Source of the DNA: a virus
Length of the DNA stretch: 49,685 nt
IMG/VR virus record: IMGVR_UViG_3300049847_000812
Span: 1-49,685 of that record
Strand: one strand, 5' to 3'
Of this stretch, positions 2,836 through 49,685 are shown piece by piece (positions within the stretch are counted from its first letter, which is position 1; each line of letters starts with the position of its first letter). The notes under the pieces were generated by a model. That model saw only the letters and a list, made by a program, of their open reading frames with translations, made no database searches and was not told where the DNA came from. Made by a program: the position numbers and the translations under genes.

Positions 2836-3597
2836 ATGCCTCGCCTCTGTACCCTTTTCCTGATCCTCACCATGCTATGTTCCCCTTTCTATGCCTGGGC
2901 ACAATCAGGCACTCCTGATGATCCACTGATTATCGATATTGTCAAAGGTCCCGACGATCCCATTGTGGCTGATCTGAATGAGCCGACCCTCTCGCCTATT
3001 GCGGTCGGATACCGAGTGGCAGAAGGCAACGCTGGCGAAAGTGGATTCTCCTATGCCGCGGAGTCAACCTGGGTGGATATTTTTGTCATTTGGCACATGA
3101 ATACAGAGCAGGCCGTGGCATTCATGCTCGCTCATCCCTATAAGCAGGTCTGGAAAACCATGCCAAGTTACATAACTGGCGGGCGCACCTGGGATCAATT
3201 CATTGAAGATGTGATGCTTGAGTGGACGCGCTACAATATGGAAAATATCATGGGCGCGGAGCCAGAGACGGAGAGTAAAGGGAATGTTCCCGCGCCATCG
3301 ATCGACCGAGATAGCCAGAATCGCATTAAGCTGAATCTCTATGTGAAAAGCTCACACAGTTGCACGTACCTCATGAATCACAATTATGATTTTCACGGGC
3401 GTAAACGCTTCACGAAATGCGTCGAGGCGCAATGGTATGTACCGCAGACCTATACGAGCGGCTATCGCTCTATTACCCGCAAGAAGCTGTACTTCCGCAA
3501 GGTGCCATCCTATATCTACTGGCCAGCCATGTATCGGGATGATCCCTGTGATCTAGTCTACAACCGGTCCTGTTGGATGCTCATTCACACTCCGTAA
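2836..3597 (+). CDS. Secreted two-cysteine-family protein (large member)
   Basis: 253 aa with a clear Sec signal: MPRLCTLFLILTMLCSPFYAWA, cleavage likely after AWA. TTAGGAGA precedes the ATG at good spacing. The mature protein is acidic at first (repeated DDP motifs) and Tyr/Arg-rich at the end. Its C-terminal third has a hydrophobic strand, SCTYLM, a basic stretch, then FTKCVEA and a Tyr-rich strand. The same pattern occurs in the secreted proteins at 8949-9437 and 10095-10637, so I read the three as diverged members of one family. Additional cysteines near the end could form a disulphide. Function unknown; it should act in the periplasm or outside the cell. Confidence 0.7.
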   Translation: MPRLCTLFLILTMLCSPFYAWAQSGTPDDPLIIDIVKGPDDPIVADLNEPTLSPIAVGYRVAEGNAGESGFSYAAESTWVDIFVIWHMNTEQAVAFMLAHPYKQVWKTMPSYITGGRTWDQFIEDVMLEWTRYNMENIMGAEPETESKGNVPAPSIDRDSQNRIKLNLYVKSSHSCTYLMNHNYDFHGRKRFTKCVEAQWYVPQTYTSGYRSITRKKLYFRKVPSYIYWPAMYRDDPCDLVYNRSCWMLIHTP

Positions 3598-3698: not shown

Positions 3699-3846
3699 AA
3701 GAACATTGAATCGCCTATTGTCCCCTACCTCTCGACATCTCTCATAGCTCCTCTGCTATACATAAGATGCTGTAAGAAGGTGGATATGCTATCATGATTT
3801 GCGCCTATCGGGTGGCACCGGATAGCTACCGCTTGCCACTCGCACT

Positions 3847-3884
3847 GAGCAGCCAGTTAGTCTTGAGTCCCTGGCTGGCTGCTC
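3847..3884 (+). promoter_or_regulatory. Leader hairpin upstream of the antirepressor
   Basis: GAGCAGCCAG (3847-3856) is perfectly complementary to CTGGCTGCTC (3875-3884), with an 18-base loop. It ends 38 bases before the GTG start of the antirepressor, whose ribosome site is outside it. Antirepressor genes are often controlled after transcription, and this hairpin is a candidate for such control. The rest of 3598-3922 shows no convincing gene: the open frame from 3794 lacks a good ribosome site. Confidence 0.4.
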
Positions 3885-3922
3885 TCCTCTTATGGGCTCA
3901 ACTCTATACTCAAGGAGAGATC

Positions 3923-4717
3923 GTGAATCAATTAATTCCTTTTGAAAAACGTATAGTCGGGACCGAGACGATTGAGACAGTCGATGGCCGTGATTTGCAT
4001 GTCGGGTTGGAGATTGGGAAGGATTATACGAGCTGGATTAAGGCGCAGATAAAGCGCGCACAACTTGATAAAGATTTGGATTATATCACCTTCACCCAAT
4101 TGGGGGAGACTGCTACTGGCGGATATAAAACCACAGAATACTTCCTCACCTTCGATGCCTCCAAGCATGTGGCCATGATGAGCGGATCAAAAAAGGGTAA
4201 AGAGGTGCGTGAGTACTTCATCGCATGCGAGAAAGAGTTACGTGATCGTCCGGCCTTGAAAGGCGACATGCTTGTGCAAATGGCTGAAGCCTATAGAAAA
4301 CTTGAAGCACAGCAAGAGCGTGATCGTCTCGCCTTAGTAGAAAATCAACAAAAAACAATTGAGGCTCTCGAAAAAGCCGTCGAATCTCTTTCGACAGCTC
4401 AGCGTGCCGAGACCAAAGCTGACATGGTCACCGATGAGTTACGTCGGTTTACCCTGGAAGAATACGTGCACAGCAATGGTCTGCTGCGGCAATTCCCCGC
4501 GAAGTATTTCTCGCGTTACTCCGCCTGGCTCAAGTCCTTCTGTCTGCAATATGGTCTGCGTATAGATAAAGCTCCAGTCGTAGGGAAGCAATGGGAAGAA
4601 GAACTCGCCTACCCCATTCAGGCTCTTGCCGCATGGCTCCGTTACGAGCAGACAAAGCCACGGCAGATAAACTTAGAGTCGCACAAACTTGAAGACACCG
4701 ATACGCAGCAAGATTAG
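3923..4717 (+). CDS. Phage antirepressor, AntA/AntB family
   Basis: 264 aa from the GTG at 3923, chosen because AGGAGA lies five bases upstream; the longer frame from 3794 has no ribosome site. The first 110 residues carry the antirepressor-domain pattern: VDGRDLHVGLEIGKDYTSWI, then YKTTEYFLTFDASKHVAMM and KGKEVREYFIACEKEL. A coiled coil follows (about 115-180), then a helical C-terminal domain that may bind the target. Such proteins inactivate a phage repressor. The candidate targets here are the ribbon-helix-helix and Cro/CI-type proteins in this genome. With no integrase seen, its presence suggests descent from temperate phages. Confidence 0.8.
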   Translation: MNQLIPFEKRIVGTETIETVDGRDLHVGLEIGKDYTSWIKAQIKRAQLDKDLDYITFTQLGETATGGYKTTEYFLTFDASKHVAMMSGSKKGKEVREYFIACEKELRDRPALKGDMLVQMAEAYRKLEAQQERDRLALVENQQKTIEALEKAVESLSTAQRAETKADMVTDELRRFTLEEYVHSNGLLRQFPAKYFSRYSAWLKSFCLQYGLRIDKAPVVGKQWEEELAYPIQALAAWLRYEQTKPRQINLESHKLEDTDTQQD

Positions 4718-10895: not shown

Positions 10896-12011
10896 TCACC
10901 ATAAGTTCATTTGTGTCGTAGGTTCCAGGCAGTGAGGGCTACACCATATTCGCTCTCTGTTGGCATTATCACGGCCACGCCCAGTGCCTTGGTTAGCCAT
11001 GCCGCCTTGCGCTTTCCAAGCAATTGTGCGCCACGTACTCGGCATGGCATGCTCTCCTTCATATCCGCAGAGCACGATGCGCAGCTGTGGATCATTACCG
11101 TGCGCTATAGCCCATTCCCGAACCTCTGGGGCAACATCTTCGTCAATGCCGTACAAGTTTCCCGCGCGATCTTTATGGCTATAAGGAGGATCCAGCACAA
11201 TGCCAGTGAGCCCAATCTTCGTCGTCGGCGAAGGTCCAAGGATGCGCTGCCAACCACCACAACAGACCCGGACGCGCTGCAAGCGCCCATGGAGGGCATG
11301 GAAATATGTCAAAAGATTCCTATCTATAGACTGCCGATGCACGCCTTGCCCTCTGTTCCCCAGGTGCAGGAGCTGCCGCCGCACGCCTTGCCCGCTGTTC
11401 TCCAGGTGCAAGCGCTGCCGCCGCACGCCTCTGTTCCCCATGTGCAAGCGCTTGCGATGCACGCCTTTCCCGCTGTCACCCAGGTGCAGGAGATGCCGAT
11501 GCACGCCTTTCCCGCTGTTCCCCAGGTGCAGGAGATGCCGATGCACGCCTTGCCCGCTGTCACCCAGGTACATGAGCTGCCGATGCCCGTCCTCGTCTGT
11601 GACGACTTGCCATGGACCTGAGTTCTCCTCATTGCACCAACCGCCACCAATCCATAGGCAAACCCCCCACAGCCACCACCCGGCGATCTGAATATCATAG
11701 TATTCCGGATCGCCTTCCAGCCGGCGTGTCAAAGTCGCACGTCGTTCTCGCAACCAGACATGTCTAGCATGAAGGTCACACTCGTGGGCGATGGTATCTG
11801 CCCATTGTGCGGTGCCTTCAGGATCATGCTTCAGTGCGCGAAAGACATTACAGACAAACCCGTCGCGGTCATTTACTGTTTCAATGCCTGGATCATGCGG
11901 GCGACCAAACAGCACAGCACCACTCCCAAAGAAAGGCTCGACATAATTGGGCACATTTCCAAGGGCTTGCCATATAAGCGGCGCAACGGTTGATTTTCCC
12001 CCAAACCACAG
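10896..12011 (-). CDS. D12-type N6-adenine DNA methyltransferase with repeat insert
   Basis: About 371 aa. D12-class enzymes (Dam/DpnM-like) methylate adenine in DNA. The N-terminal signature is present as LWFGGKSTVAPLIWQAL then YVEPFFGSGAVLF; the catalytic motif is VLDPPYSHKD. To include WFGGKS the gene must start at a CTG (12011), since an in-frame TGA lies at 12017-12015 and no ATG, GTG or TTG fits; the GTG at 11954 would cut off the SAM-binding N-terminus. Between motif I and DPPY lies an insert of about six 14-residue repeats (GVHRHLLHLGNSGK-like) not usual in the family. The enzyme probably shields phage DNA from host restriction. Confidence 0.8.
   Translation of the reverse strand: MWFGGKSTVAPLIWQALGNVPNYVEPFFGSGAVLFGRPHDPGIETVNDRDGFVCNVFRALKHDPEGTAQWADTIAHECDLHARHVWLRERRATLTRRLEGDPEYYDIQIAGWWLWGVCLWIGGGWCNEENSGPWQVVTDEDGHRQLMYLGDSGQGVHRHLLHLGNSGKGVHRHLLHLGDSGKGVHRKRLHMGNRGVRRQRLHLENSGQGVRRQLLHLGNRGQGVHRQSIDRNLLTYFHALHGRLQRVRVCCGGWQRILGPSPTTKIGLTGIVLDPPYSHKDRAGNLYGIDEDVAPEVREWAIAHGNDPQLRIVLCGYEGEHAMPSTWRTIAWKAQGGMANQGTGRGRDNANRERIWCSPHCLEPTTQMNLW
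11336..11584. repeat. 42-bp minisatellite inside the methyltransferase gene
   Basis: Six tandem units of 42 bp, one shortened to 36, plus a partial seventh. Units begin GATGCACGCC or GCCGCACGCC, and most contain CAGGTGCA. As 42 and 36 are multiples of three, every frame stays open, which creates several false plus-strand reading frames here. The units encode 14-residue His/Gly/Arg/Leu repeats. Confidence 0.85.
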
Positions 12012-12899: not shown

Positions 12900-15532
12900 G
12901 GCACCACCAGCTCTCTTGTCTGCATGTTCCCTGCATTATCCTGCACTGTGGCGACCCAATGGCCTGGCATGCGCGGTAAAGACAAACGCCCAGCGCCCAG
13001 ACTCGTTGCCTGCTGCGGCAGGCCATTCCGTGTCACATATAATGTTCCCATATTTATTCCAGACGCAGCATCGGCAAGCCCTAGCAGTAGCTCCTCTCCC
13101 GTATCGTGCAGCGTGATGGTCGGCTTCACCGTGTCATCCAAATAGCGTGTGCCGATCGGGGCGCCGATATCGATCCATGCCAGGATGTCGCGCTTTTCCT
13201 GATCAGTCAGGAGCGTGGATGCAGGGCAGCCCGTGCCCATATCGACATCATCATTTCGCGAGGCGTTGGTAAGGCCATCGGTGCGCTGCCCGACGACTTT
13301 CCATCCGAGCAGTGAACGACGAGACTGCAATTTCCGCACGTACCTGCTTGAGTTCCAGCCAATCCATTGTTGGGGCGTTCCGGCAGGTGGCTTAGTGCCC
13401 CACTGGGCGTTTGGATCGTTCGCCAGCCGATTGTAATCGTTTGGGAGCCCGTTTGGATCGTTGGATACAATGTCGAAACGAAGGTTCCCGGCTGCTGTGG
13501 CATTGTGGCAGGCGAGGCAAGCTTGGAGTTTCGGCCTGATGTCTCGGACATACTCTATGCTCCGTGCTGGTTGTTGCGTGAGGTCGTCTGGGATATACCC
13601 AGGTTGGCCCGCTACGGTATTATCGAAATTTGTCCCCACCTGGTTGTGTGCATGGCAACCACCACAGTCATGGCGATTCTCGCCGGGGCGCACCTGGTGC
13701 CACGTCTGTGAGTTGGTCAGCGCCATTCCCCTGCTGTCGAGGAGCTGGAAGGTGAAGGGTGTGTCGGCTGGTATCCTGGAGAGGAAGCTCGTATCGGGAT
13801 TGCCGTCCGGATCAAGTGGCGCGCCAGGCTTGCGAAGAGGTATCTCTCCCAGGATACGCAATTTCTCCTGCCCGATGTGCCCTACATATGGCTCAAGCCC
13901 CGTGGGGAACACATCGGGGAGAGGTTCCTGGACCACGATCCTCACACTGTGCATCTCACTATTGCTCCACAGACCAGCCATTGCGCCCTGCCAGCCCCAG
14001 TTGCTATTCGCCTGATCCGCACGATTAAAGTCGTCCAGCTTGCCAGGAAGGTTCCCCTGACCTGGGTCGGTGTTGCGTTTGTAGAAGCTGCTAGTACCGA
14101 CTAGGCCATAGGGCGTGCCAGGAAGAAGCATGGGATGAGAGGATGCCGGCAACCAGGGTAGCTCTGGTGGCGCGGGCGCCCCATACTTCTCCTGCCACGT
14201 GACCACCGCCTGCGGGAACCACTCATTGCGTTCCGGCGTCTGGTAGATCAGTGTGAGGGCTGAGGGCAGCTGTGCCGCATTGCCTCCGGGGAGAAGATAG
14301 ATGCCTGAATCATAGGTTGGTTGCGCCACGCCGAAGTGGTGATTGGCGGGCCCGGGTGTGTAGGAGAGTAGCACGTCGTTGCCGGGCGCGGCGGCAGGAT
14401 GGGTCACCTTGCCGACGTACTGGCCATTGACAATGGCCGACATCTCGTCGCGCTCAGAGGCAAAGGGCGTCCGTGCTGTCAGCCCCACCGGGGAGAAGGC
14501 GTAATAGTCTTTCCAGGGCATATTATTCACGTAGCCCTGGTAGAGGAACGGATTCTGCCTGGCTGTCGGAGAACCAAAGCGCGGGAACGCGGTAATGGAG
14601 CCAAGCGGATAGAAGGTGAAGGAGTTGAGCGTGCCGAAGCCGTTATTATTCTTATTGTAATAAAAATCGGTAATAATGTCTCCGTTGCCCTGCTGCGCCT
14701 GAAAGTGCACGGCATTTTCCTTGGCCCCTATAGCACTCATCAGTGGTCCCCAACCACGGCCGTCAGGGAATGAAGCCCACAGGCCCCAGAGACGACGATC
14801 ACGGAGCCCATGCGCTTCGTAGGATGTCCACATGATTCTGCCGTCAATTAAGGGGGCAGGGTGGAGGGCAGAGCCGAGATTCAGGAAACCGACCTCTTCT
14901 TGTATCCCTGTGGTCTCGTCGAGCACATAGAGCTTGTAGTTCTCGTCGGTGAAGGTTTTGTTTGGGATGGCGCCGTTGCGGTTGCTGACGAAGGCTAATT
15001 TGTTCCCTGCGAGAGGAGCTGTCCCAACGTTGAATATTCCATGGCCTAGCGCAGCCTTGGTCGTTGGAGCCCCTGCGATAGGCGTATATTCACCGAAGGT
15101 CAGCTGCATCTTGACGCGTGTCGCAATATGTATCTTCCACAGGTTACAATCAGCGCGCGGGAGATTGCGTCGTTGCTGATTCCTCGCCACCACGTCGGTA
15201 CAAAAGGAATAGTACACATACTGAGCATCGAAACTCACCACGGGGTCGAGCACCGCGCCTTGCGTGCCAGCATCGACCAGCACCTCAGGGGCTCCGCTAC
15301 CGGGATCGAGCAGCATCAGGTGCGTCCCTGGTTCTAACTGCATAGTTGTGAAGACGTCAGGGAGCTTCGCGAGCACGGTATTGCCATAACGTGGCGAGGA
15401 GAGAAAGATCACCGGATAGGAGAGAGGATTCGCAGCATGTGCTATCCCGGCCAGAAGCCCAAGCAGGAAGCCAAGTATCACCCACAGAATAAACCGATTA
15501 CGCAATCGACGATGATGTTCGACCAGGGTCAT
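12896..15532 (-). CDS. HzsA-like secreted dihaem c-type cytochrome
   Basis: 878 aa. The start at 15532 overlaps the stop of the methyltransferase gene (ATGA). A basic N-terminus and hydrophobic run lead to GIAHA, a Sec signal. Residues about 40-560 look like a TolB/WD40-type propeller (YVYYSFC, LAFVSNRNGAIPN, IYLLPGG). Two haem-c sites follow: CGGCH at 623-627 after WHQVRPGENRHD, and CLACH at 672-676 after YVRDIRPKLQA. A typical cytochrome end (LLTDQEKRDILAWIDIGAP) precedes a beta-sandwich-like tail. This order matches proteins annotated as hydrazine synthase alpha-subunit family, most of which are not shown to make hydrazine. It should be exported and depend on host haem ligation. Confidence 0.7.
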   Translation of the reverse strand: MTLVEHHRRLRNRFILWVILGFLLGLLAGIAHAANPLSYPVIFLSSPRYGNTVLAKLPDVFTTMQLEPGTHLMLLDPGSGAPEVLVDAGTQGAVLDPVVSFDAQYVYYSFCTDVVARNQQRRNLPRADCNLWKIHIATRVKMQLTFGEYTPIAGAPTTKAALGHGIFNVGTAPLAGNKLAFVSNRNGAIPNKTFTDENYKLYVLDETTGIQEEVGFLNLGSALHPAPLIDGRIMWTSYEAHGLRDRRLWGLWASFPDGRGWGPLMSAIGAKENAVHFQAQQGNGDIITDFYYNKNNNGFGTLNSFTFYPLGSITAFPRFGSPTARQNPFLYQGYVNNMPWKDYYAFSPVGLTARTPFASERDEMSAIVNGQYVGKVTHPAAAPGNDVLLSYTPGPANHHFGVAQPTYDSGIYLLPGGNAAQLPSALTLIYQTPERNEWFPQAVVTWQEKYGAPAPPELPWLPASSHPMLLPGTPYGLVGTSSFYKRNTDPGQGNLPGKLDDFNRADQANSNWGWQGAMAGLWSNSEMHSVRIVVQEPLPDVFPTGLEPYVGHIGQEKLRILGEIPLRKPGAPLDPDGNPDTSFLSRIPADTPFTFQLLDSRGMALTNSQTWHQVRPGENRHDCGGCHAHNQVGTNFDNTVAGQPGYIPDDLTQQPARSIEYVRDIRPKLQACLACHNATAAGNLRFDIVSNDPNGLPNDYNRLANDPNAQWGTKPPAGTPQQWIGWNSSRYVRKLQSRRSLLGWKVVGQRTDGLTNASRNDDVDMGTGCPASTLLTDQEKRDILAWIDIGAPIGTRYLDDTVKPTITLHDTGEELLLGLADAASGINMGTLYVTRNGLPQQATSLGAGRLSLPRMPGHWVATVQDNAGNMQTRELVVP

Positions 15533-16779: not shown

Positions 16780-16988
16780 GTGCGCCCGCCCGGTGGTGAG
16801 GCCGAGCGCCAGAAGCCGATCATCGACGCCGTATTGTGCGGAAAGAGCGTGGTGATGTTCGAGCCACTAGTATCGAGGATATCGGCACGCGGAAACATCC
16901 CTGTGCCAGTGGTGCCGCATACCCCGCACTGGCCGCTCGCAGGGCCAGGCGGCGCGTTGGGTGCGAGGAAATGGCTAATGGGGATCAT
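16776..16988 (-). CDS. Small CxxC protein, possible N-terminal part of a broken gene
   Basis: 70 aa, starting by an ATGA overlap with the stop of the sigma-factor gene. Residues about 16-45 hold CGVCGTTGTGMFPRADIL, a single zinc-like CxxC pair. The last 30 residues are less convincing, and the Cas6-like sequence appears in another frame, so the two may be pieces of one gene joined before a frameshift. Zinc-ribbon N-termini of this look occur in some Cas proteins (e.g. Csf1), but the match is too short to claim. Confidence 0.4.
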   Translation of the reverse strand: MIPISHFLAPNAPPGPASGQCGVCGTTGTGMFPRADILDTSGSNITTLFPHNTASMIGFWRSASPPGGRT

Positions 16989-17680
16989 ATATTAACCATT
17001 TCCTTAGCAGAGTATTTTTGGGAAAATCGGAATCCCTTAGGGAGTGGATAAACTTGTTCTTCTGTGATGCTCGTTGTGATGTGTTTTCCCACCTCTTGGA
17101 GTATTTGCGTCACCCGTGTTTCGTGCAAATTATACTCTCGGGCTACGGCACGAATCTGCCTCTGTTCCTGGACTACAGCACGATAGATGGCCACATTGCG
17201 TTTATTTTTAACTGTGCTTAAGGCCTTCTCTATGAGCCATAGGCGATATGAATTGCCAAATAATTGCTCCTCATGCAGACGAAATAGGGCCCCAATATAG
17301 AAGCTCTTAGGATAGAAAGACTCACCATCTTTCTCGACCATGTGTTCAATATATTTCGCTTCGAATCGCCACCATACCACTGCTTGTCCCCACAGCTTCC
17401 TGGGATTGCGATATTTTGCCCCGTGCCCCCACATAGAAGCGCGGATGGCATCTTTCATGGCACCTTTTACACGAGTATGCGCCCATGTTTTGTAGCTGAT
17501 TCCATGGACTGACTCATAGGATCGATATGCCTGTAATGCTCCTATCTGCCCTTCCTGGATCAGGTCTTCCCTGGAAAGATAGGAGTCATTCATGTGCTCA
17601 GAATGCCATAACTCTTTGGCGTAGCTATTGATAAGTGGAATCATCACTTCGATGGCCTCTTGCTCATTATGAGGATGCAT
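16985..17680 (-). CDS. Sigma-70-family factor, FliA-like
   Basis: 231 aa from the ATG at 17680; longer starts run deep into the RuvC-like gene. Region 2 is at about residues 13-85: LSREDLIQEGQIGALQAYRS, then SYKTWAHTRVKGAMKDAIRA, close to the DLxQxGxxGL and RIRGAMLDELR pattern of FliA/sigma-28. A region-4 HTH lies near 170-205: RAVAREYNLHETRVTQILQE. Region 1.1 is absent. It would redirect host RNA polymerase to phage promoters. The genome contains repeated sites laid out like sigma-28 promoters (29-31 kb), the likely targets. The ribosome site is weak; translation may be coupled to the gene before it. Confidence 0.8.
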   Translation of the reverse strand: MHPHNEQEAIEVMIPLINSYAKELWHSEHMNDSYLSREDLIQEGQIGALQAYRSYESVHGISYKTWAHTRVKGAMKDAIRASMWGHGAKYRNPRKLWGQAVVWWRFEAKYIEHMVEKDGESFYPKSFYIGALFRLHEEQLFGNSYRLWLIEKALSTVKNKRNVAIYRAVVQEQRQIRAVAREYNLHETRVTQILQEVGKHITTSITEEQVYPLPKGFRFSQKYSAKEMVNI

Positions 17681-18167
17681 AGATTCTGCGTCCGTATTCT
17701 GCAAGGAGGAGCGCCTCAGCACATCCACTTCTGAGGCTAAGCTCATGCTTCGTGGCACATTCATTAAGTTTCCATTGAGGAAACAACGTGCTCGCGGCAT
17801 GGATACAATTAGATTTTTCTGCATTCAGTGACAATGCCCTCTTCCACTTCGCTGGCGGCGCTGTGACCATTTTATATTCCGCCATGAGTCCGAGCCACAT
17901 GCCGTAGCCTGTGAACTGGCGCGCAGTGGCCACGCATGATTGCCGTGGCATAGCCATGGGCTCTTCGATCACCACAAGCCCGATATAGTGTCTATTACGT
18001 AGCTCCTCTATGGAGGCAATAATGGCCTGCATATTGTATTCTTTTTTTGCCTTCGCCTGGCCTGCAATCACTGGAGTATTACAGACACAAACATATTCCC
18101 CAGTCCGTCTTATCGCCGCAATTGCTCCCTCAAAGCCGGGATCAATTCCAATGATAATATCTGCCAT
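17667..18167 (-). CDS. RuvC-like Holliday junction resolvase
   Basis: 166 aa from the ATG at 18167, chosen because the fold begins at once (ADIIIGIDPGFEGAIAAI) and AAGG lies upstream. RNase H-fold acidic residues are visible: Asp in GIDPG, Glu pair in VVIEEP, and acidic residues in the C-terminal helix (SGCAEALLLAEYG). Such phage enzymes cut branched DNA before packaging and work with annealing proteins like the RecT-like one upstream. It overlaps the sigma-factor gene by 14 bases. Confidence 0.75.
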   Translation of the reverse strand: MADIIIGIDPGFEGAIAAIRRTGEYVCVCNTPVIAGQAKAKKEYNMQAIIASIEELRNRHYIGLVVIEEPMAMPRQSCVATARQFTGYGMWLGLMAEYKMVTAPPAKWKRALSLNAEKSNCIHAASTLFPQWKLNECATKHELSLRSGCAEALLLAEYGRRIYASS

Positions 18168-27180: not shown

Positions 27181-27206
27181 ATGGAGAGGGAACACTCCCT
27201 CTCCAT
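27181..27206. terminator. Bidirectional hairpin terminator
   Basis: ATGGAGAGGGA (27181-27191) and TCCCTCTCCAT (27196-27206) are perfectly complementary with an ACAC loop. It lies between two convergent genes (ending 27170 and 27213) and can serve both strands, though no T-run follows. Confidence 0.7.
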
Positions 27207-27212
27207 CTGATG

Positions 27213-27350
27213 CTACATATTCAGCCGATTACTCTCTCGATCATATCTCCGGTGGCCATACCGCACAGTAATGCGATCATCCACAATATGCACGGCCAGA
27301 AGACAGATGGAGATGATGATTGCGCCGATGCCTGCCATTACGAACCACAT
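27213..27350 (-). CDS. 45-aa membrane peptide
   Basis: 45 aa. MWFVMAGIGAIIISICLLA forms one membrane helix (about residues 2-22), followed by a basic tail (RYGHRRYDRESNRL). GGAGAG lies seven bases before the ATG, and the gene overlaps the end of the HTH gene. Small membrane peptides of phages often affect superinfection or membrane functions; its role is unknown. Confidence 0.55.
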   Translation of the reverse strand: MWFVMAGIGAIIISICLLAVHIVDDRITVRYGHRRYDRESNRLNM

Positions 27351-27601
27351 GTGTTTCTCTCCCGCAATAGGGTACAAATTTGTTCAATAGCCTTCTGATC
27401 CCTGGTGAAGAGTGCGCCGAGATCATCTATCCCCAGAGCTGTGATAATGCGAATCGCCTTGCTCGCGATCATTTGCTCGCACCCATATGTCTCAGCACGT
27501 TGTAGCGTGGTATAGTGCACGTTGCTGCGAAATGCCAATTCGTGCAGGGATAGGCCTGCCGCTTTGCGATAGGCATAAAGGGCCGTGGACTTATGTGCCA
27601 T
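27338..27601 (-). CDS. Cro/CI-type HTH regulator
   Basis: 87 aa. The HTH spans about residues 8-60: LYAYRKAAGLSLHELAFRSN, VHYTTLQRAET, ASKAIRIITALGI. No C-terminal peptidase-like domain, so it is Cro-like in size. Its start overlaps the stop of the gene before it. A candidate regulator of the small-gene operon and a possible target of the antirepressor. Confidence 0.7.
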   Translation of the reverse strand: MAHKSTALYAYRKAAGLSLHELAFRSNVHYTTLQRAETYGCEQMIASKAIRIITALGIDDLGALFTRDQKAIEQICTLLRERNTCGS

Positions 27602-28572: not shown

Positions 28573-28659
28573 TTACGACAGAATGATGATTGCGCCCAAG
28601 AGCCCGATTGCGATCATGCCGACTGTGAAGATGAAGAAGAGTTCCTGTGCGCGTTTCAT
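28573..28659 (-). CDS. 28-aa membrane peptide under cassette promoter A
   Basis: 28 aa: MKRAQELFFIFTVGMIAIGL then LGAIIILS, a positive N-terminus and one membrane helix. CAGGAGA lies just upstream, after the leader hairpin of cassette A, so this is the gene that promoter serves. Too short for normal gene callers, but its promoter, hairpin and ribosome site support it. Confidence 0.6.
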   Translation of the reverse strand: MKRAQELFFIFTVGMIAIGLLGAIIILS

Positions 28660-28686: not shown

Positions 28687-28770
28687 GGGGGAGTCCATCT
28701 CCCCCTTCTGATATACTTATCGGATTATTGGATAGAATCTTTAGCCTTAAATTGTGTGATCTAGCTCACG
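28687..28770 (-). promoter_or_regulatory. Promoter cassette A (sigma-28-like, CRP-like site, hairpin)
   Basis: On the minus strand, in order: TGTGA-N6-TCACG-type palindrome (28755-28770), -35-like TAAAGATT (28743-28736), 11-base spacer, -10-like TCCGATAA (28724-28717), then hairpin GGGGGAG/CTCCCCC (28705-28687) and the gene. TAAA-N15-GCCGATAA is the sigma-28 layout. The palindrome overlaps the last codons of the gene upstream. Confidence 0.75.
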
Positions 28771-29001
28771 CTCCATCCGAGCTACCTGGTTGGTCGCCAA
28801 CCCTGCCGCCGCCCATAATCCGATGAGCATCTGATGGCTTAGCTCCTCGACCAGGCATACCACGAGATCATCGGCAATCTCCTGCTCGCAGGCATCAAGA
28901 TCATTGGCGCAGGCCTCGCAGAGCCAGAAATCATGGCGATAGACTGTCCCGATAACCCGATCATCATTCGCTGCGCACGATTCGCAGATTTTTCCGTGCA
29001 T
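28747..29001 (-). CDS. Small zinc-finger protein
   Basis: 84 aa from the ATG at 29001 (AGGAGC eight bases upstream). CESC and CEAC about 21 residues apart form a likely zinc site; the rest is acidic and helical (DACEQEIADDLVVCLVEEL). Its final codons, ELDHTI, are part of the palindrome of cassette A, so coding and regulatory sequence overlap. Confidence 0.6.
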   Translation of the reverse strand: MHGKICESCAANDDRVIGTVYRHDFWLCEACANDLDACEQEIADDLVVCLVEELSHQMLIGLWAAAGLATNQVARMERELDHTI

Positions 29002-29176
29002 CACTCTTGCTCCTTGCCTGTGACAATTCCAATAATAAGTGGCGCATTTCCGGTCCCATGGCGGCAATTGATTCCTCAGCGATAAGCCCCACATCCTCTA
29101 CCTGATCATCATTTTCAGCTTCTTCCCAGGAGAAAGGAATAGCAAGAAGCCCAAATTCAAGCCTTACTCCTCCCAT
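28964..29176 (-). CDS. Hypothetical acidic protein
   Basis: 70 aa, overlapping its neighbours at both ends. Acidic (WEEAENDDQVEDVGLIAEES) then a basic helix (LLLELSQARSKSDARKNL). The ribosome site is unclear, as GGAGGAG lies inside the first codons. Unrecognised. Confidence 0.5.
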   Translation of the reverse strand: MGGVRLEFGLLAIPFSWEEAENDDQVEDVGLIAEESIAAMGPEMRHLLLELSQARSKSDARKNLRIVRSE

Positions 29177-29361
29177 AGATAATGATCCTTATCTTTCCGG
29201 TGTGCCCTCGTTCGGATCCATTCACAGCCCCTGATATGATTCTGCGCCTCTGCACGCCAGCCCTGATCATCATCAATGGCCGGAACTGGCGGTTGATCAT
29301 CCTCAGGATATGGGAGGAGTGCATCACAATAGAGACAATGATTCGCTGGTTTTTGTTTCAT
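29164..29361 (-). CDS. Small zinc-ribbon-like protein
   Basis: 65 aa from the ATG at 29361 (AGGAG five bases upstream). CLYCDALLPYPED then HIRGCEW gives Cys/His that could bind zinc, as in phage C2H2-like small proteins. Preceded by the hairpin at 29376-29396 but without a sigma-28-like promoter, so probably cotranscribed with the SWIM gene. Confidence 0.6.
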   Translation of the reverse strand: MKQKPANHCLYCDALLPYPEDDQPPVPAIDDDQGWRAEAQNHIRGCEWIRTRAHRKDKDHYLWEE

Positions 29362-29375
29362 AATGCTCCTTGGCT

Positions 29376-29396
29376 GGGGAGTCTCAACCACTCCCC
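29376..29396 (-). terminator. Leader hairpin between SWIM gene and zinc-ribbon gene
   Basis: GGGGAGT (29376-29382) and ACTCCCC (29390-29396) pair with a seven-base loop. It resembles the cassette hairpins (GGGGGAG/CTCCCCC) but has no promoter before it. It may set transcript ends or stability. Confidence 0.5.
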
Positions 29397-29404
29397 CATT
29401 ATTT

Positions 29405-29929
29405 TTACTCAGCCGCCCATTCGATCGGTCCGTACTGCGCCACCACGGCCAGAACCAGAGGCCCGAGGCACACCTGATGAGCTGGCAAATCCGCATAATC
29501 TCGCATCACCACGCCATCGGGCGCATAGGGATGGAACCGTCGCAGACCATTCTCACCGAGCAGCCTGGCGATGCCATTATGCGTATTTCCGTGGCGATCG
29601 GTGGCTGTAGCGATATAATCCTGATCGGTCCAGACATCGCTCGCGAGCGCCTCTTTTTCCATGCGCGCAGACAAACATTTCGCCCACCGATGCTTGCACA
29701 TATTATCGGGCGCATTTCCCTGCTGAAAATCCACGCAGGGGCACGAGCCGTTGACGGCATAAATATGGTGGTGGTTGGTCACAATCGCACTGCCGTCGTG
29801 CCGCAATTCCACGCCGCCGTCCAGAATAATTTCTACTGCGCGAGTGATACGGGCTACGTTGTAGGGATATTTCTCTGCTGCGCGTTTTGCCAGGACATTC
29901 AACTGGGCTTTTCGTGTCTCGGTCATCAT
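29405..29929 (-). CDS. SWIM-type zinc-finger protein
   Basis: 174 aa from the second ATG (29929), eight bases after AGGAG. The motif CPCVDFQQGNAPDNMCKHRW is CxCx(n)CxH, the SWIM zinc finger found in DNA-linked and recombination-associated proteins. It is preceded by a beta-hairpin-like GGVELRHDGSAIVTNHHHIY, as in other phage SWIM proteins. Expressed from cassette B. Role unknown. Confidence 0.7.
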   Translation of the reverse strand: MMTETRKAQLNVLAKRAAEKYPYNVARITRAVEIILDGGVELRHDGSAIVTNHHHIYAVNGSCPCVDFQQGNAPDNMCKHRWAKCLSARMEKEALASDVWTDQDYIATATDRHGNTHNGIARLLGENGLRRFHPYAPDGVVMRDYADLPAHQVCLGPLVLAVVAQYGPIEWAAE

Positions 29930-29958
29930 GGTCATTGCTCCTGTGTGCCTAGTGTCTC

Positions 29959-30042
29959 GGGGGAGTCCATCTCCCCCTGATGACATACTTATCGGATGAT
30001 CGGGTAAATACTTAAGTGCTAAATTGTGTGATCTAGCCCACA
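29959..30042 (-). promoter_or_regulatory. Promoter cassette B
   Basis: Minus strand: palindrome TGTGA-N6-CCACA (30027-30042), -35-like TTAAGTAT (30015-30008), 11-base spacer, TCCGATAA (29996-29989), hairpin GGGGGAG/CTCCCCC (29977-29959), then the ribosome site of the SWIM gene. It has the same order and spacing as A, C and D. Confidence 0.75.
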
Positions 30043-30052
30043 ATTTTATGCT

Positions 30053-30343
30053 CTATATCCACTCTCCGGAATCACTATACAAACTGCCTGCTCCCCACCG
30101 CAGAACATCGCCATCTTCCGCGCTATAGTGTGCCAGCAGATACGCGGTAACCTGCTGATCCGGATCATCCTGCCATAGAGCGTAAGCGGCGCTGGAATGA
30201 TCTAGGATATCGTCCCCGCCGAGTTGCAGGCAGGCATCTAAAATGGCTGGGCTGGTTTCAAAACTACTCAGAGCATCCTCTGTTCCGGCAGGATACCCTA
30301 AGTCAACAAAGCGAATGTTGATAGCGCGTATTTTCATCATCAT
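30053..30343 (-). CDS. Hypothetical protein under cassette C
   Basis: 96 aa from the ATG at 30343, eight bases after AGGAG; an ATG two bases after the ribosome site is too close. MMMKIRAINIRFVDLG, then acidic and Trp-containing segments (AYALWQDDPDQQVTAYLLAH). Soluble, unrecognised. Confidence 0.6.
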   Translation of the reverse strand: MMMKIRAINIRFVDLGYPAGTEDALSSFETSPAILDACLQLGGDDILDHSSAAYALWQDDPDQQVTAYLLAHYSAEDGDVLRWGAGSLYSDSGEWI

Positions 30344-30370
30344 GGTCATGCTCCTGTGTCTAGTTCCTGC

Positions 30371-30454
30371 GGGGGAGTCCATCTCCCCCTTCAAAGTACT
30401 TATCGGATGATTGGGTAAAATACTTAAGTGCTATTTTATGTGATCTAAGTCACA
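30371..30454 (-). promoter_or_regulatory. Promoter cassette C, perfect CRP-like site
   Basis: Minus strand: TGTGA-N6-TCACA (30439-30454, a full match to the CRP consensus arms), -35-like TAAGTATT (30426-30419), 11-base spacer, TCCGATAA (30407-30400), hairpin (30389-30371). Serves the gene ending at 30053. Confidence 0.75.
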
Positions 30455-30475
30455 AATCCCTAAATGAGGCGTAGG

Positions 30476-30841
30476 TTATCGCCTGGCCACGTCATCTGCG
30501 AACCATTTCGCGGCCTCGTTGCAGTCGATCTCTGCCCAATCGCCGCGTACCCAGCGATGCGTAAATTCCGCATTCAGCCGCTCACGATACGCAGCGGGAT
30601 AGGTGCAATTTTCCGACGTAAAAATACCATCATTCATCATGCCGCAATATATGGCCAGGGCATATTGCCGATCTTCGCGATCCAGGCATGCCTGACAGAC
30701 CTGAGGGAACATGCCAGCGATGTGGACCATCGGGATCTCGCAGCGGTAGCATGTCGCGCTTATTATGGGAAACATCTCATCCATTGTCTTTATCGTGGTT
30801 GCGTTATTGAGGTTTGCGATAATCTGCGTGGTAGTTCTCAT
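30476..30841 (-). CDS. Zinc-finger protein under cassette D
   Basis: 121 aa from the ATG at 30841 (eight bases after AGGAG). CYRC and CQAC about 18 residues apart suggest a zinc ribbon; RTTTQIIANLNNATTIKTMD precedes it and a Trp/acidic helix follows (HRWVRGDWAEIDCNEAAKWF). Unrecognised. Confidence 0.6.
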   Translation of the reverse strand: MRTTTQIIANLNNATTIKTMDEMFPIISATCYRCEIPMVHIAGMFPQVCQACLDREDRQYALAIYCGMMNDGIFTSENCTYPAAYRERLNAEFTHRWVRGDWAEIDCNEAAKWFADDVARR

Positions 30842-30869
30842 GGTCATTGCTCCTATGTCTAGTTCCTGC

Positions 30870-30926
30870 GGGGGAGTCCATCTCCCCCTGATACTATACT
30901 TATCGGAATCTCGGATAAAATCTTTA
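30870..30926 (-). promoter_or_regulatory. Promoter cassette D
   Basis: Minus strand: TAAAGATT (30926-30919), 11-base spacer, TCCGATAA (30907-30900), hairpin GGGGGAG/CTCCCCC (30888-30870). Unlike A-C there is no CRP-like palindrome upstream; the coding end of the gene before it begins four bases away. Confidence 0.7.
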
Positions 30927-31206: not shown

Positions 31207-31249
31207 ATTATAGCATATATGGGTAATGCTGCAAGTATATTGCAGCATT
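31207..31249 (-). promoter_or_regulatory. Sigma-70 promoter with overlapping palindromic operator
   Basis: Minus strand: TTGCAG (31234-31229), 16 bases, TATAAT (31212-31207). A perfect ten-base inverted repeat, AATGCTGCAA and TTGCAGCATT (31225-31249, five-base centre), contains the -35 element. A bound repressor would block it. Confidence 0.7.
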
Positions 31250-32627: not shown

Positions 32628-34251
32628 CCTCGGAACTGTGCGCCCCGGACGAACCATTTATATCCCATTTGAATCCTTCGCCAGCGCCACCGGAGCGCCG
32701 ATCACGATCACCGGACTGGCGACTTCGGATATCCTCATCTATAAAGATGGCGGCACCACGCAGCGCGCCAGCACCAGCGGCTTCACATTGCTCGACACCG
32801 ACGGGATCGACTTCGATGGTATCACCGGAATTCATGGCTTCAGCATCGATCTGAGCGACAACACCACAGCCGGATTCTATGCAGCAGGCTCGCAATATTT
32901 TATTGTGGTGTCGACGGTCACGGTTGACTCGCAAGCCATGAGCTTTTTAGCCGCGTGGTTCCGGATCGGCTATGACGCGGCAGTGTTGAACACCACCATC
33001 GCTACGCTGAGCACGCAAACGAGTTTCACTCTTACCACTGGACCTGCCGAAGATGACGCCATGAACGGGAGCATCGTGCTCATCCATGATGTGGCGAGCA
33101 ATGTACAACAGACCTATGCCGTGGTGGCTGACTATACGGGGAGTACAAAGACTGTGACGCTGGCCGCCGCTGGGACTTTCACCGTGGCGGCCAGCGATAA
33201 CATCTCATTTTTCCCCCCTGCACTCACCGCGACCATCGCAGGCCGCACGCTTGATGTATCGGCCACCGGAGAGGCTGGCGTGGACTGGGCAAATGTTGGT
33301 AGCCCGACGACCTCGCTGGCGCTGACGGGCACCACGATCGCCACGACGCAACAGGTCGATGTGAACACGATCAAGACACAGACCGTGACATTGTCTGGCG
33401 GGGTGACGATTCCTGCGGCGACCCTGGCCTCGACCACCAACATCACGGCGGGGACGATGACCACGGCGACCAACGTGACCACGTTATCCTCTGGAGCCAT
33501 CAGTGCCGCCTCGTTCGCGGCAGGAGCTATCGACGCTGCTGCTATCGCCACGGATGCCATCGGGAGTGCCGAGCTTGCTGCCAGTGCTGTGAACGAAATC
33601 GCTGACCAGGTCTGGGACGAAGTGCTCAGCGGACATCTCACCGCAGGGACCACCGGCGCCGCACTGAACGCGGCAGGGGCGGCTGGTGACCCCTGGAGCA
33701 CGGCCATCCCCGGAGCGTATGGCGCTGGCACAGCAGGGAAAATCGTAGGCGATAATCTGAACGCCACGGTGAGTTCGCGATTGGCGAGCGCAAGCTATAC
33801 TGCTCCGCTTGATGCTTCGGGCACACGAGCAGCGGTGGGGCTCGCCAGCGCGAATCTTGATACGCAGCTCAGCACGATTAATTCAGCCGTGGATACCGAA
33901 GTCGGCGCGATTAAGGCCAAGACTGATCAGCTCGGATTCATCGGCGGCAGGGTCGATGCGACGATCGGCGCGATTAACGGCAATGCCACTGCGGCGCAGA
34001 ACCTAGAACGCAGCGCGCTGACCATTTATCGGGGGACTGTAACCGGGACGAGCACCACGACGACCGTGGTGGATTCTGGGCTCACGCAGAGCGCAGCGGA
34101 TTTTTGGAAGGGGCGCATTGTGATCTTCGTCACAGGGACGTTGGCGGGGCAGGCAAGCGATATCACTGCGTTTACGCCAGCAACGGATACGCTGACGATC
34201 ACGGCGCTCACAGGGTCGCCGAGCGTGTCTGACAATTTTGTCATTGTGTAA
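32620..34251 (+). CDS. Large Ala/Thr-rich virion protein
   Basis: 543 aa from a GTG overlapping the previous stop. N-terminal beta domain (RPGRTIYIPFESFASATGAP, TITGLATSDILIYKDGG), then long Ala/Thr-rich repeats (TTNITAGTMTTATNVTT, VWDEVLSGHLTAGTTGAALN) typical of phage tail or decoration proteins, then a C-terminal beta part (TVVDSGLTQSAADFWKGRIV, TGSPSVSDNFVIV). Precise role unknown; the start of the structural run makes a tail or fibre-like part likely. Confidence 0.6.
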   Translation: MLDLGTVRPGRTIYIPFESFASATGAPITITGLATSDILIYKDGGTTQRASTSGFTLLDTDGIDFDGITGIHGFSIDLSDNTTAGFYAAGSQYFIVVSTVTVDSQAMSFLAAWFRIGYDAAVLNTTIATLSTQTSFTLTTGPAEDDAMNGSIVLIHDVASNVQQTYAVVADYTGSTKTVTLAAAGTFTVAASDNISFFPPALTATIAGRTLDVSATGEAGVDWANVGSPTTSLALTGTTIATTQQVDVNTIKTQTVTLSGGVTIPAATLASTTNITAGTMTTATNVTTLSSGAISAASFAAGAIDAAAIATDAIGSAELAASAVNEIADQVWDEVLSGHLTAGTTGAALNAAGAAGDPWSTAIPGAYGAGTAGKIVGDNLNATVSSRLASASYTAPLDASGTRAAVGLASANLDTQLSTINSAVDTEVGAIKAKTDQLGFIGGRVDATIGAINGNATAAQNLERSALTIYRGTVTGTSTTTTVVDSGLTQSAADFWKGRIVIFVTGTLAGQASDITAFTPATDTLTITALTGSPSVSDNFVIV

Positions 34252-48777: not shown

Positions 48778-49685
48778 ATGCCAACACTTGCTGATTACAC
48801 AAAATCGCTCGACCCAGGCACGATCAAGAAAATGATCGTAGAGGAATCGCAGCGCCAGGGATTAACTCCTGATCAGACAACAGCAGTGCTTGGCATTGCC
48901 GCGCAGGAAACAGGGTTCAAGAATATCGATAATGGACGAAAGGACCCGCGGGATGGTGTTGGGGTGTTTCAGTTCACTCCTGGGACGGCCAGAAGCTTCG
49001 GGATGAATGTTTTACCACGCACAGCCACCGGCGATGTCGATCCTGGGGATGATCGTCTCAACCCCTACAAGAATGTGCAGGCTGGTGTGCAGCTTTTTAA
49101 GCGCAATCTCCAGGCGGCTGGCGGGGATATTTGGGGGACAACTGGGGCAGTAAAACGTCATAACGGTCTGGGGCAAGGAGGCGATCCTGACTATCGGGCG
49201 CATGTGCAGCAGCAGCTCGCCAAAATGGAGCCCAACCAAAGCCTTCTCTCTCGCATTGGAAGCATGTTTACGCCACGCGAGGCGTCAGCAGCAGAAAATC
49301 CCTCTCGTGAGCTTGATGTCAAAACGCTCGCAGGGGAATTATTTCCTCCGAAAACAAGCGCCGCATGGCAATCCCCATCATTCGATGCTAAAACGCTCGC
49401 AGGGGAATTATTTCCTCCGGCATCACCTGTTTCTGCGCCAATGCCTGATCAGATGCCATTCCCACAACAAGTATCTGTAGCAGGGCAACCAGCACCAGCG
49501 CAGAAAACCACAACCCCAGACGACCTCATAGCGCAAGCCGAAGCGTCTGGTGGCACCCCACAAGAGATTGCGGACGCGAAGGCGCTCATTGCGCATGAAG
49601 CACAGCAACGACAACGCGCTGATCTTCCAGTGGCACAACCAGCCTCTGCTCCGCCAAAGATCATGCAACCCCTCGACCCGAACGC
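48778..49685 (+). CDS. Ejection protein with lytic transglycosylase domain, N-terminal part
   Basis: First 302 residues of the gene that continues at base 1 on the circular map. Residues about 18-150 are a soluble-lytic-transglycosylase-like domain: LGIAAQETGFKNID with the catalytic Glu44, then GVGVFQFTPGTARSFG. It cuts peptidoglycan so that the phage DNA can pass. A Pro/Ala/Gln-rich linker follows with a repeated KTLAGELFPP. The gene resembles the gp16-type terminal gene of the ejection cluster, here fused to a wall-cutting domain. Confidence 0.85.
   Translation, partial: MPTLADYTKSLDPGTIKKMIVEESQRQGLTPDQTTAVLGIAAQETGFKNIDNGRKDPRDGVGVFQFTPGTARSFGMNVLPRTATGDVDPGDDRLNPYKNVQAGVQLFKRNLQAAGGDIWGTTGAVKRHNGLGQGGDPDYRAHVQQQLAKMEPNQSLLSRIGSMFTPREASAAENPSRELDVKTLAGELFPPKTSAAWQSPSFDAKTLAGELFPPASPVSAPMPDQMPFPQQVSVAGQPAPAQKTTTPDDLIAQAEASGGTPQEIADAKALIAHEAQQRQRADLPVAQPASAPPKIMQPLDPN
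49321..49419 (+). repeat. In-frame 30-bp direct repeat
   Basis: 49321-49350 and 49390-49419 are identical (AAAACGCTCGCAGGGGAATT onward), 69 bases apart, both reading KTLAGELFPP. Perfect identity over 30 bases within coding DNA suggests recent duplication. The motif may be a short peptide signal for packing the protein into the head; that is speculation. Confidence 0.85.
49483..49685. repeat. Right copy of imperfect 203-bp terminal repeat
   Basis: Aligned base for base with 1-203 with seven substitutions. It marks where the circular or permuted genome was opened. A packaging-made terminal repeat would normally be identical. Confidence 0.85.

Follow-up and report, generated by a model that had tools for sequence, protein, structure and literature searches.

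On the minus strand of the virus record IMGVR_UViG_3300049847_000812, we found four promoters of the sigma-28 (FliA) type, each followed by an identical leader hairpin and then by a small gene. The window below means this whole record of 49,685 bases. We numbered these promoter-hairpin cassettes in order of transcription as P1 (30926), P2 (30426), P3 (30015) and P4 (28743), which apparently correspond to cassettes D, C, B and A of a preliminary description of this DNA. On balance we favor the view that the cassettes would put small genes of the early region under RNA polymerase with a FliA-type sigma factor, the phage's own sigma factor being the most likely reader and host FliA also able to read them.

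Four copied sigma-28-type promoters

The preliminary description had reported four minus-strand cassettes, each with a sigma-28-like promoter, an exact 11-base spacer, an identical hairpin and an AGGAG ribosome site. The cassettes were found with all of their elements, and the hairpin and the AGGAG before the start codon were present in every one. The spacer was 11 bases in P1, P3 and P4, but in P2 it reached this length only with the -35 shifted one base later (TAAGTATT); aligned with P3, the same promoter reads TTAAGTAT-N12. The sequence TAAAGATT-N11-TCCGATAAGTA was exact in P1 and P4. TCCGATAAGTA formed an invariant block in all four promoters, and the -35 differed between them. Compared with the sigma-28 class (a -35 like TAAAGTTT, a -10 like GCCGATAA and a spacer of 11 nucleotides, nt), P1, P3 and P4 gave exact or near matches and P2 a match with a shifted -35. 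When the window was scanned for TAAAGATT-N11-TCCGATAA with at most 3 mismatches, exactly P1-P4 were returned, two of them perfect; Markov-shuffled genomes averaged 0.2 sites and, over 200 shuffles, never gave more than 2. The preliminary description had proposed scanning relatives as well, and 1.8 Mb of P22-like relatives contained 0 sites of this promoter class in the wider scans described below. These sequence comparisons strongly supported the interpretation of the four sites as sigma-28-type promoters.

The cassette blocks are diverged copies of one another, ~60-104 nt long and 63-79% identical, and stand before unrelated genes. Family searches placed the genes behind them in no shared family and returned hardly any matches at all. 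The small genes had been proposed to form a regulon built from copied promoter modules; copied modules of the sigma-28 class before unrelated small genes were indeed present, and the interpretation as a whole was supported in part. Blocks of this size and identity before unrelated genes could also be a mobile or recombination repeat whose likeness to promoters is secondary, comparable to the promoter early stem-loops (PeSLs), promoter-terminator composites that have been proposed as shuffling cassettes in T4-type phages. Both are short copied cassettes of promoter and stem-loop among small novel genes, with four copies here. PeSLs, however, are early promoters of T4-type myoviruses, whereas the cassettes of this P22-like phage are of the sigma-28 type, with the hairpin right after the start and no T tract. 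Moreover, the -10, the spacer length and the place of the hairpin were held while the flanks of the blocks diverged, and promoters of this class in unrelated phages go with other hairpin sequences. We therefore consider a mobile repeat improbable as the main explanation, although the mobile-repeat and promoter readings are compatible. In 40 stretches of relatives, no dispersed 15-mer with at least 3 copies occurred alongside a repeated hairpin.

A FliA-type sigma factor encoded by the phage

The window encodes a sigma factor that scored 51.8 bits against the curated family FliA, 47.8 against FliA_WhiG, 26.5 against RpoH and 21.3 against RpoD, which places the FliA models ~20 bits above RpoH and RpoD. 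These best specific models nevertheless scored far below their family cut-offs (47.8 bits against 189.6 for TIGR02479; 51.8 against 201 for PRK06986), and the protein is therefore named FliA-type rather than a family member. Its best solved relatives in PDB are FliA structures. Region 2, which reads the -10, aligned with that of E. coli FliA without gaps over 62 residues (24/64 identical), and a weak alignment of region 4 placed the phage ETRVTQ opposite the FliA ESRVSQ. The phage protein is closest to FliA in region 2 and may have a FliA-like recognition helix in region 4; apart from its scores, it differs from the family by an unrecognizable region 3 and by N- and C-terminal extensions. Because of the FliA-like region 2 and the ETRVTQ/ESRVSQ pair, the sigma factor and the promoters point to the same class. 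The predicted structure had a mean predicted local distance difference test (pLDDT) score of 40 and was unusable.

FliA-type sigma factors in phages are not new, as an E. coli FliA query matched 116 phage records weakly to moderately, one of which is annotated fliA. No close relatives of the window's sigma factor were found in viral contigs, genomes or phage records. Among P22-like relatives, 36 portal and 42 capsid records contained neither the cassettes nor a P0001 homologue, and relatives with at most 73% capsid identity lacked both these promoters and this sigma factor. One capsid relative (54%), L220, encodes at 13208-13777 a 189-amino-acid (aa) FliA/WhiG-type sigma factor with no detectable similarity to that of the window, and sigma-28-type promoters were absent from the stretch that carries it.

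Sigma-28-type promoter sets in other phages

An exact search for TAAAGATT-N11-TCCGATAAGT in 2.9 million viral contigs returned 3 contigs, each with further copies (11 sites versus 0 for the reversed pattern). One of them, the 70-kb contig IMGVR_UViG_3300049825_001003 (L177, L260-L263), encodes a portal and a DNA polymerase, with a weak terminase match. It carries about nine intergenic sigma-28-type promoters, all on one strand and a short distance ahead of genes, among them those for an SbcC-like protein and the DNA polymerase, and it contains no recognizable sigma factor. A second pattern, CTAAAGTTT-N11-KCCGATAAG, gave 101 stretches, and 82 loci (0.79 Mb) were checked allowing at most 2 mismatches. 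They contained 153 sites versus 0 for the reversed pattern, 61 of which were not seed sites. A ribosome site and start codon followed within 80 nt at 124 of the 153 (81% vs 19% for random positions), and 29 of the 38 multi-site loci had all sites on one strand. Outside the search pattern, the columns were rich in A upstream and in A/T around the start. The excess of sites held across 50 whole records. We regard sigma-28-type promoter sets, as recognized by these patterns, as a real feature of many phages; since the set was selected by its promoters, it gives no frequency among phages, and many of its contigs are fragments. In L293 (IMGVR_UViG_3300049844_000087), eight or nine such promoters lie within 14.6 kb, several of them followed by different leader hairpins, and an RIIA-like gene is situated among these promoters. 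Searching phage records of isolates with the 36-nt consensus gave weak matches only, and the Bacillus phage stretch examined had no such promoter. A literature search that reached few subscription journals returned no published description of sigma-28 promoter sets in phages; within the searchable literature, the combination of elements and the multi-phage sets appear not to have been described.

The proposed mechanism is that a FliA-type holoenzyme binds TAAAGATT-N11-TCCGATAA and starts ~5-6 nt downstream, and because of this start the RNA would begin ~5-6 nt before the hairpin. The phage FliA-type sigma factor (16985-17824) would be the most likely reader of P1-P4, with host FliA able to act on the same sites. 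The cassette itself was copied to places ahead of unrelated genes. Several observations weigh against this proposal. Only region 2 is clearly common with FliA, region 4 being a weak match, and the sigma gene lies far from the cassettes and is itself without such a promoter. The spacing of P2 is imperfect, and this phage holds four such sites only. In addition, a sigma-70 region 2 above the cut-off was found in 0 of the 53 other promoter-bearing records searched, many of which are fragments; among the 50 whole records the count was also 0, with two marginal matches and working controls. Such promoters therefore need no phage sigma factor, and host FliA is the simplest and probably the actual reader in those other phages.

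The last result favors an alternative for the window as well, in which host FliA alone reads the cassettes and ties their genes to whether the host is motile, and the phage sigma factor has another job. Besides the many phages with such promoter sets and no recognizable sigma factor, the window sites fit the FliA consensus of E. coli (PMC2859248), and phages are known that read CtrA, a host regulator of motility and the cell cycle (PMC9437464). On the other hand, this phage is the one that encodes a FliA-type sigma factor, and a scan of 50 kb from each of two phages that use the flagellum, Chi and 7-7-1, revealed no close match. We hold this alternative to be a serious one, though not the probable one, and retain the phage sigma factor as the preferred reader.

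A leader hairpin at a fixed place

The hairpin GGGGGAGATGGACTCCCCC has a stem of 7 base pairs (bp) and a loop of 5 nt. Its distance from the -10 octamer is 11 nt in P1, P3 and P4 and 10 nt in P2, and the start codon follows 27-29 nt beyond the hairpin. In the other phages, a hairpin of the same dimensions at 10 or 11 nt past the -10 octamer was found at 7 of 179 distinct sites, compared with 3 of 6000 random places. Since L302 and L324 are related (79% portal identity) and two sites lie on one contig, about four lineages stand behind the seven sites. By its portal (phrog_156) and terminase (phrog_2), L302 is a distant P22-like phage. In both L302 and L324 the cassettes of sigma-28-type promoter and hairpin diverge from the structural genes, just as the window cassettes do; the stem sequences of L302 are different. 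Leader hairpins in general were not enriched (6/153 sites with a perfect stem of at least 6, random 6%), only the 7/5 hairpin at +10/+11 was. Pair counts of the stems across phages revealed changes on both sides; as the hairpins were selected for pairing, these counts illustrate the point rather than prove it independently, and the evidence is the excess at the fixed place. Searching viral contigs for GGGAG-N5-CTCCC after CCGATA gave 16 stretches, among which a -35 was present besides only in L302; the others look like chance.

The hairpin matched no known RNA family, and an intrinsic terminator was rejected, as the T tract is absent. Its role would most likely be to protect the 5' end of the predicted RNA from decay or to keep the ribosome site open or spaced. 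A fifth, similar hairpin precedes an internal gene without a promoter, which indicated that the hairpin can act apart from initiation. This would also fit a protein-binding translational switch of the CsrA/RsmA kind in place of a stabilizer. The CsrA/RsmA motif is ANGGA, and the AUGGA loop, identical in the four leaders, fits it. However, GGA is missing from the loops found at this place in other phages (AUGCA, AUACA, ACAGA, AUAAG), the ribosome site lies outside the hairpin, and we consider such a switch very unlikely.

CRP-like sites upstream of three promoters

TGTGA-type palindromes had been described upstream of three cassettes and taken as possible sensors of cyclic AMP (cAMP) and CRP. 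The palindromes themselves were confirmed at P2, P3 and P4, and P1 has none. Among the phages with this promoter class, they appear to be particular to that of the window. Genome-wide, the CRP core occurred at 4 sites against ~1.7 expected, not clearly above chance. Isolated CRP-like palindromes also lie inside coding sequence at 3547-3562 and 34119-34134, probably by chance. The notable point on the core is its fixed place in three promoters, yet these promoters are copies of one another, and the three sites therefore count as about one independent event.

In E. coli, CRP activates the sigma-28 promoters of aer and trg from an unusual place at -49.5, where it works better than at -41.5 or -61.5, and 5-bp shifts of the site abolish activation (PMC2859248). 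Activation of P2-P4 by cAMP-CRP in the same manner would agree with a core of 9-10/10 at one place, 38-39 bp from the -10, and with the preference of E. coli CRP for -49.5 on such promoters (PMC2859248). The centers of the phage sites, however, would fall near -51.5/-52.5 rather than at -49.5, a distance 2-3 bp greater than in E. coli (36 bp from the -10 in aer). Together with the missing site at P1, the near-chance genome-wide count and the lack of enrichment upstream of sigma-28-type promoters in other phages (4 vs 4 in the control), this makes such activation doubtful. CRP sensing by these sites, as far as their sequence and spacing suggest, is possible but weak.

Genome and setting of the cassettes

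Genes for a portal (phrog_156) and for scaffold, coat, head closure and DNA-transfer proteins mark the record as that of a P22-like podovirus. Rightward genes from 31356 are structural, and the leftward genes include most early-type genes (RecT-like, RuvC-like, primase, methyltransferase). The four cassettes form the start of this leftward early block, directly divergent from the structural genes. As a sigma-70-like promoter lies upstream of them and a terminator-like hairpin at the block end, the cassettes would be extra internal promoters inside an early unit. The coordinates of all features are given in Table 1. A helix-turn-helix gene (27338-27601) and an AntA antirepressor gene (3794-4717) suggest a temperate phage. 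Direct terminal repeats of 203 nt, 97% alike, were found at 1-203 and 49483-49685, and a repeat array with a spacing of 36-42 nt lies inside a leftward gene (11332-11589).

Table 1. Coordinates of the cassettes and associated features in the window
Feature	Position	Strand	Basis or remark
P1, sigma-28-type promoter TAAAGATT-N11-TCCGATAA, no CRP-like site	30900..30926	-	exact pattern, chance estimate
P2, promoter TAAGTATT-N11-TCCGATAA, alternatively TTAAGTAT-N12	30400..30426	-	pattern
P3, promoter TTAAGTAT-N11-TCCGATAA	29989..30015	-	pattern
P4, promoter TAAAGATT-N11-TCCGATAA	28717..28743	-	exact pattern
Leader hairpin 1, GGGGGAGATGGACTCCCCC	30870..30888	-	11 nt after P1 -10 octamer
Leader hairpin 2, identical	30371..30389	-	10 nt after P2 -10 octamer
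Leader hairpin 3, identical	29959..29977	-	cassette P3
Leader hairpin 4, identical	28687..28705	-	cassette P4
Fifth, related hairpin GGGGAGTGGTTGAGACTCCCC, between genes, no promoter	29376..29396	-	
CRP-like palindrome TGTGACTTAGATCACA	30439..30454	-	upstream of P2, core 10/10
CRP-like palindrome TGTGGGCTAGATCACA	30027..30042	-	upstream of P3, core 9/10
CRP-like palindrome CGTGAGCTAGATCACA	28755..28770	-	upstream of P4, core 9/10
P1 small gene, 121 aa, CxxC...CxxC-like, no family match	30476..30841	-	
P2 small gene, 96 aa, no family match	30053..30343	-	
P3 first gene, 174 aa, C-x-C...C-x-H motif like SWIM zinc finger	29405..29929	-	motif by eye; no Pfam match
Gene after fifth hairpin, 65 aa	29164..29361	-	
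Small gene, 70 aa	28964..29176	-	
Small gene, 84 aa, CxxC pairs	28747..29001	-	overlaps P4 upstream region
P4 gene, 28-aa hydrophobic peptide	28573..28659	-	weak Pfam match only
FliA-type sigma factor of the phage, 279 aa; top matches FliA and FliA_WhiG	16985..17824	-	Pfam Sigma70_r2 2e-11; NCBIfam; PDB; pairwise to E. coli FliA
Sigma-70-like promoter TTGCAG-N16-TATAAT	31207..31234	-	sequence; upstream of cassettes, head of block
Perfect 9-bp dyad ATGCTGCAA-N5-TTGCAGCAT	31226..31248		overlaps -35 of sigma-70-like promoter; candidate repressor operator, single copy
Terminator-like hairpin and T tract	27184..27201	-	end of early block

Comparison with known systems and implications

The sigma-28 promoters of aer and trg in E. 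coli resemble those of the phage in the elements TAAAG...-N11-.CCGATAA and, for three of the four, in a CRP-like site near -50. The phage copies differ in being arrayed in tandem ahead of small genes that are unrelated, in their constant leader hairpin, in having T for G as the first -10 base, and in a CRP site 2-3 bp further upstream. A second parallel is offered by the CtrA-controlled phages of alphaproteobacteria, in which lytic deferment was shown by experiment (PMC9437464). There too, several phage lineages have come to carry a focused group of sites that answer to a regulator linked with host motility; CtrA, however, is an experimentally shown DNA-binding regulator, whereas here the regulator would be a sigma factor.

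Sigma-28 is generally seen as a sigma factor reserved for flagella and chemotaxis. We tentatively propose, at somewhat less than even confidence, that widespread and so far undescribed phages place early gene sets on sigma-28 promoters, often through a copied promoter-hairpin module, and so couple infection to the motile state of the host, and that some of them captured a FliA-type sigma factor for independence. The phage of the window carries, within a single genome, both a sigma factor and the promoters that it likely reads, and this makes the pair directly testable in vitro. If the proposal is true, the motility state of the host would be a decision input for infection, giving a testable link between phage success and host behavior.

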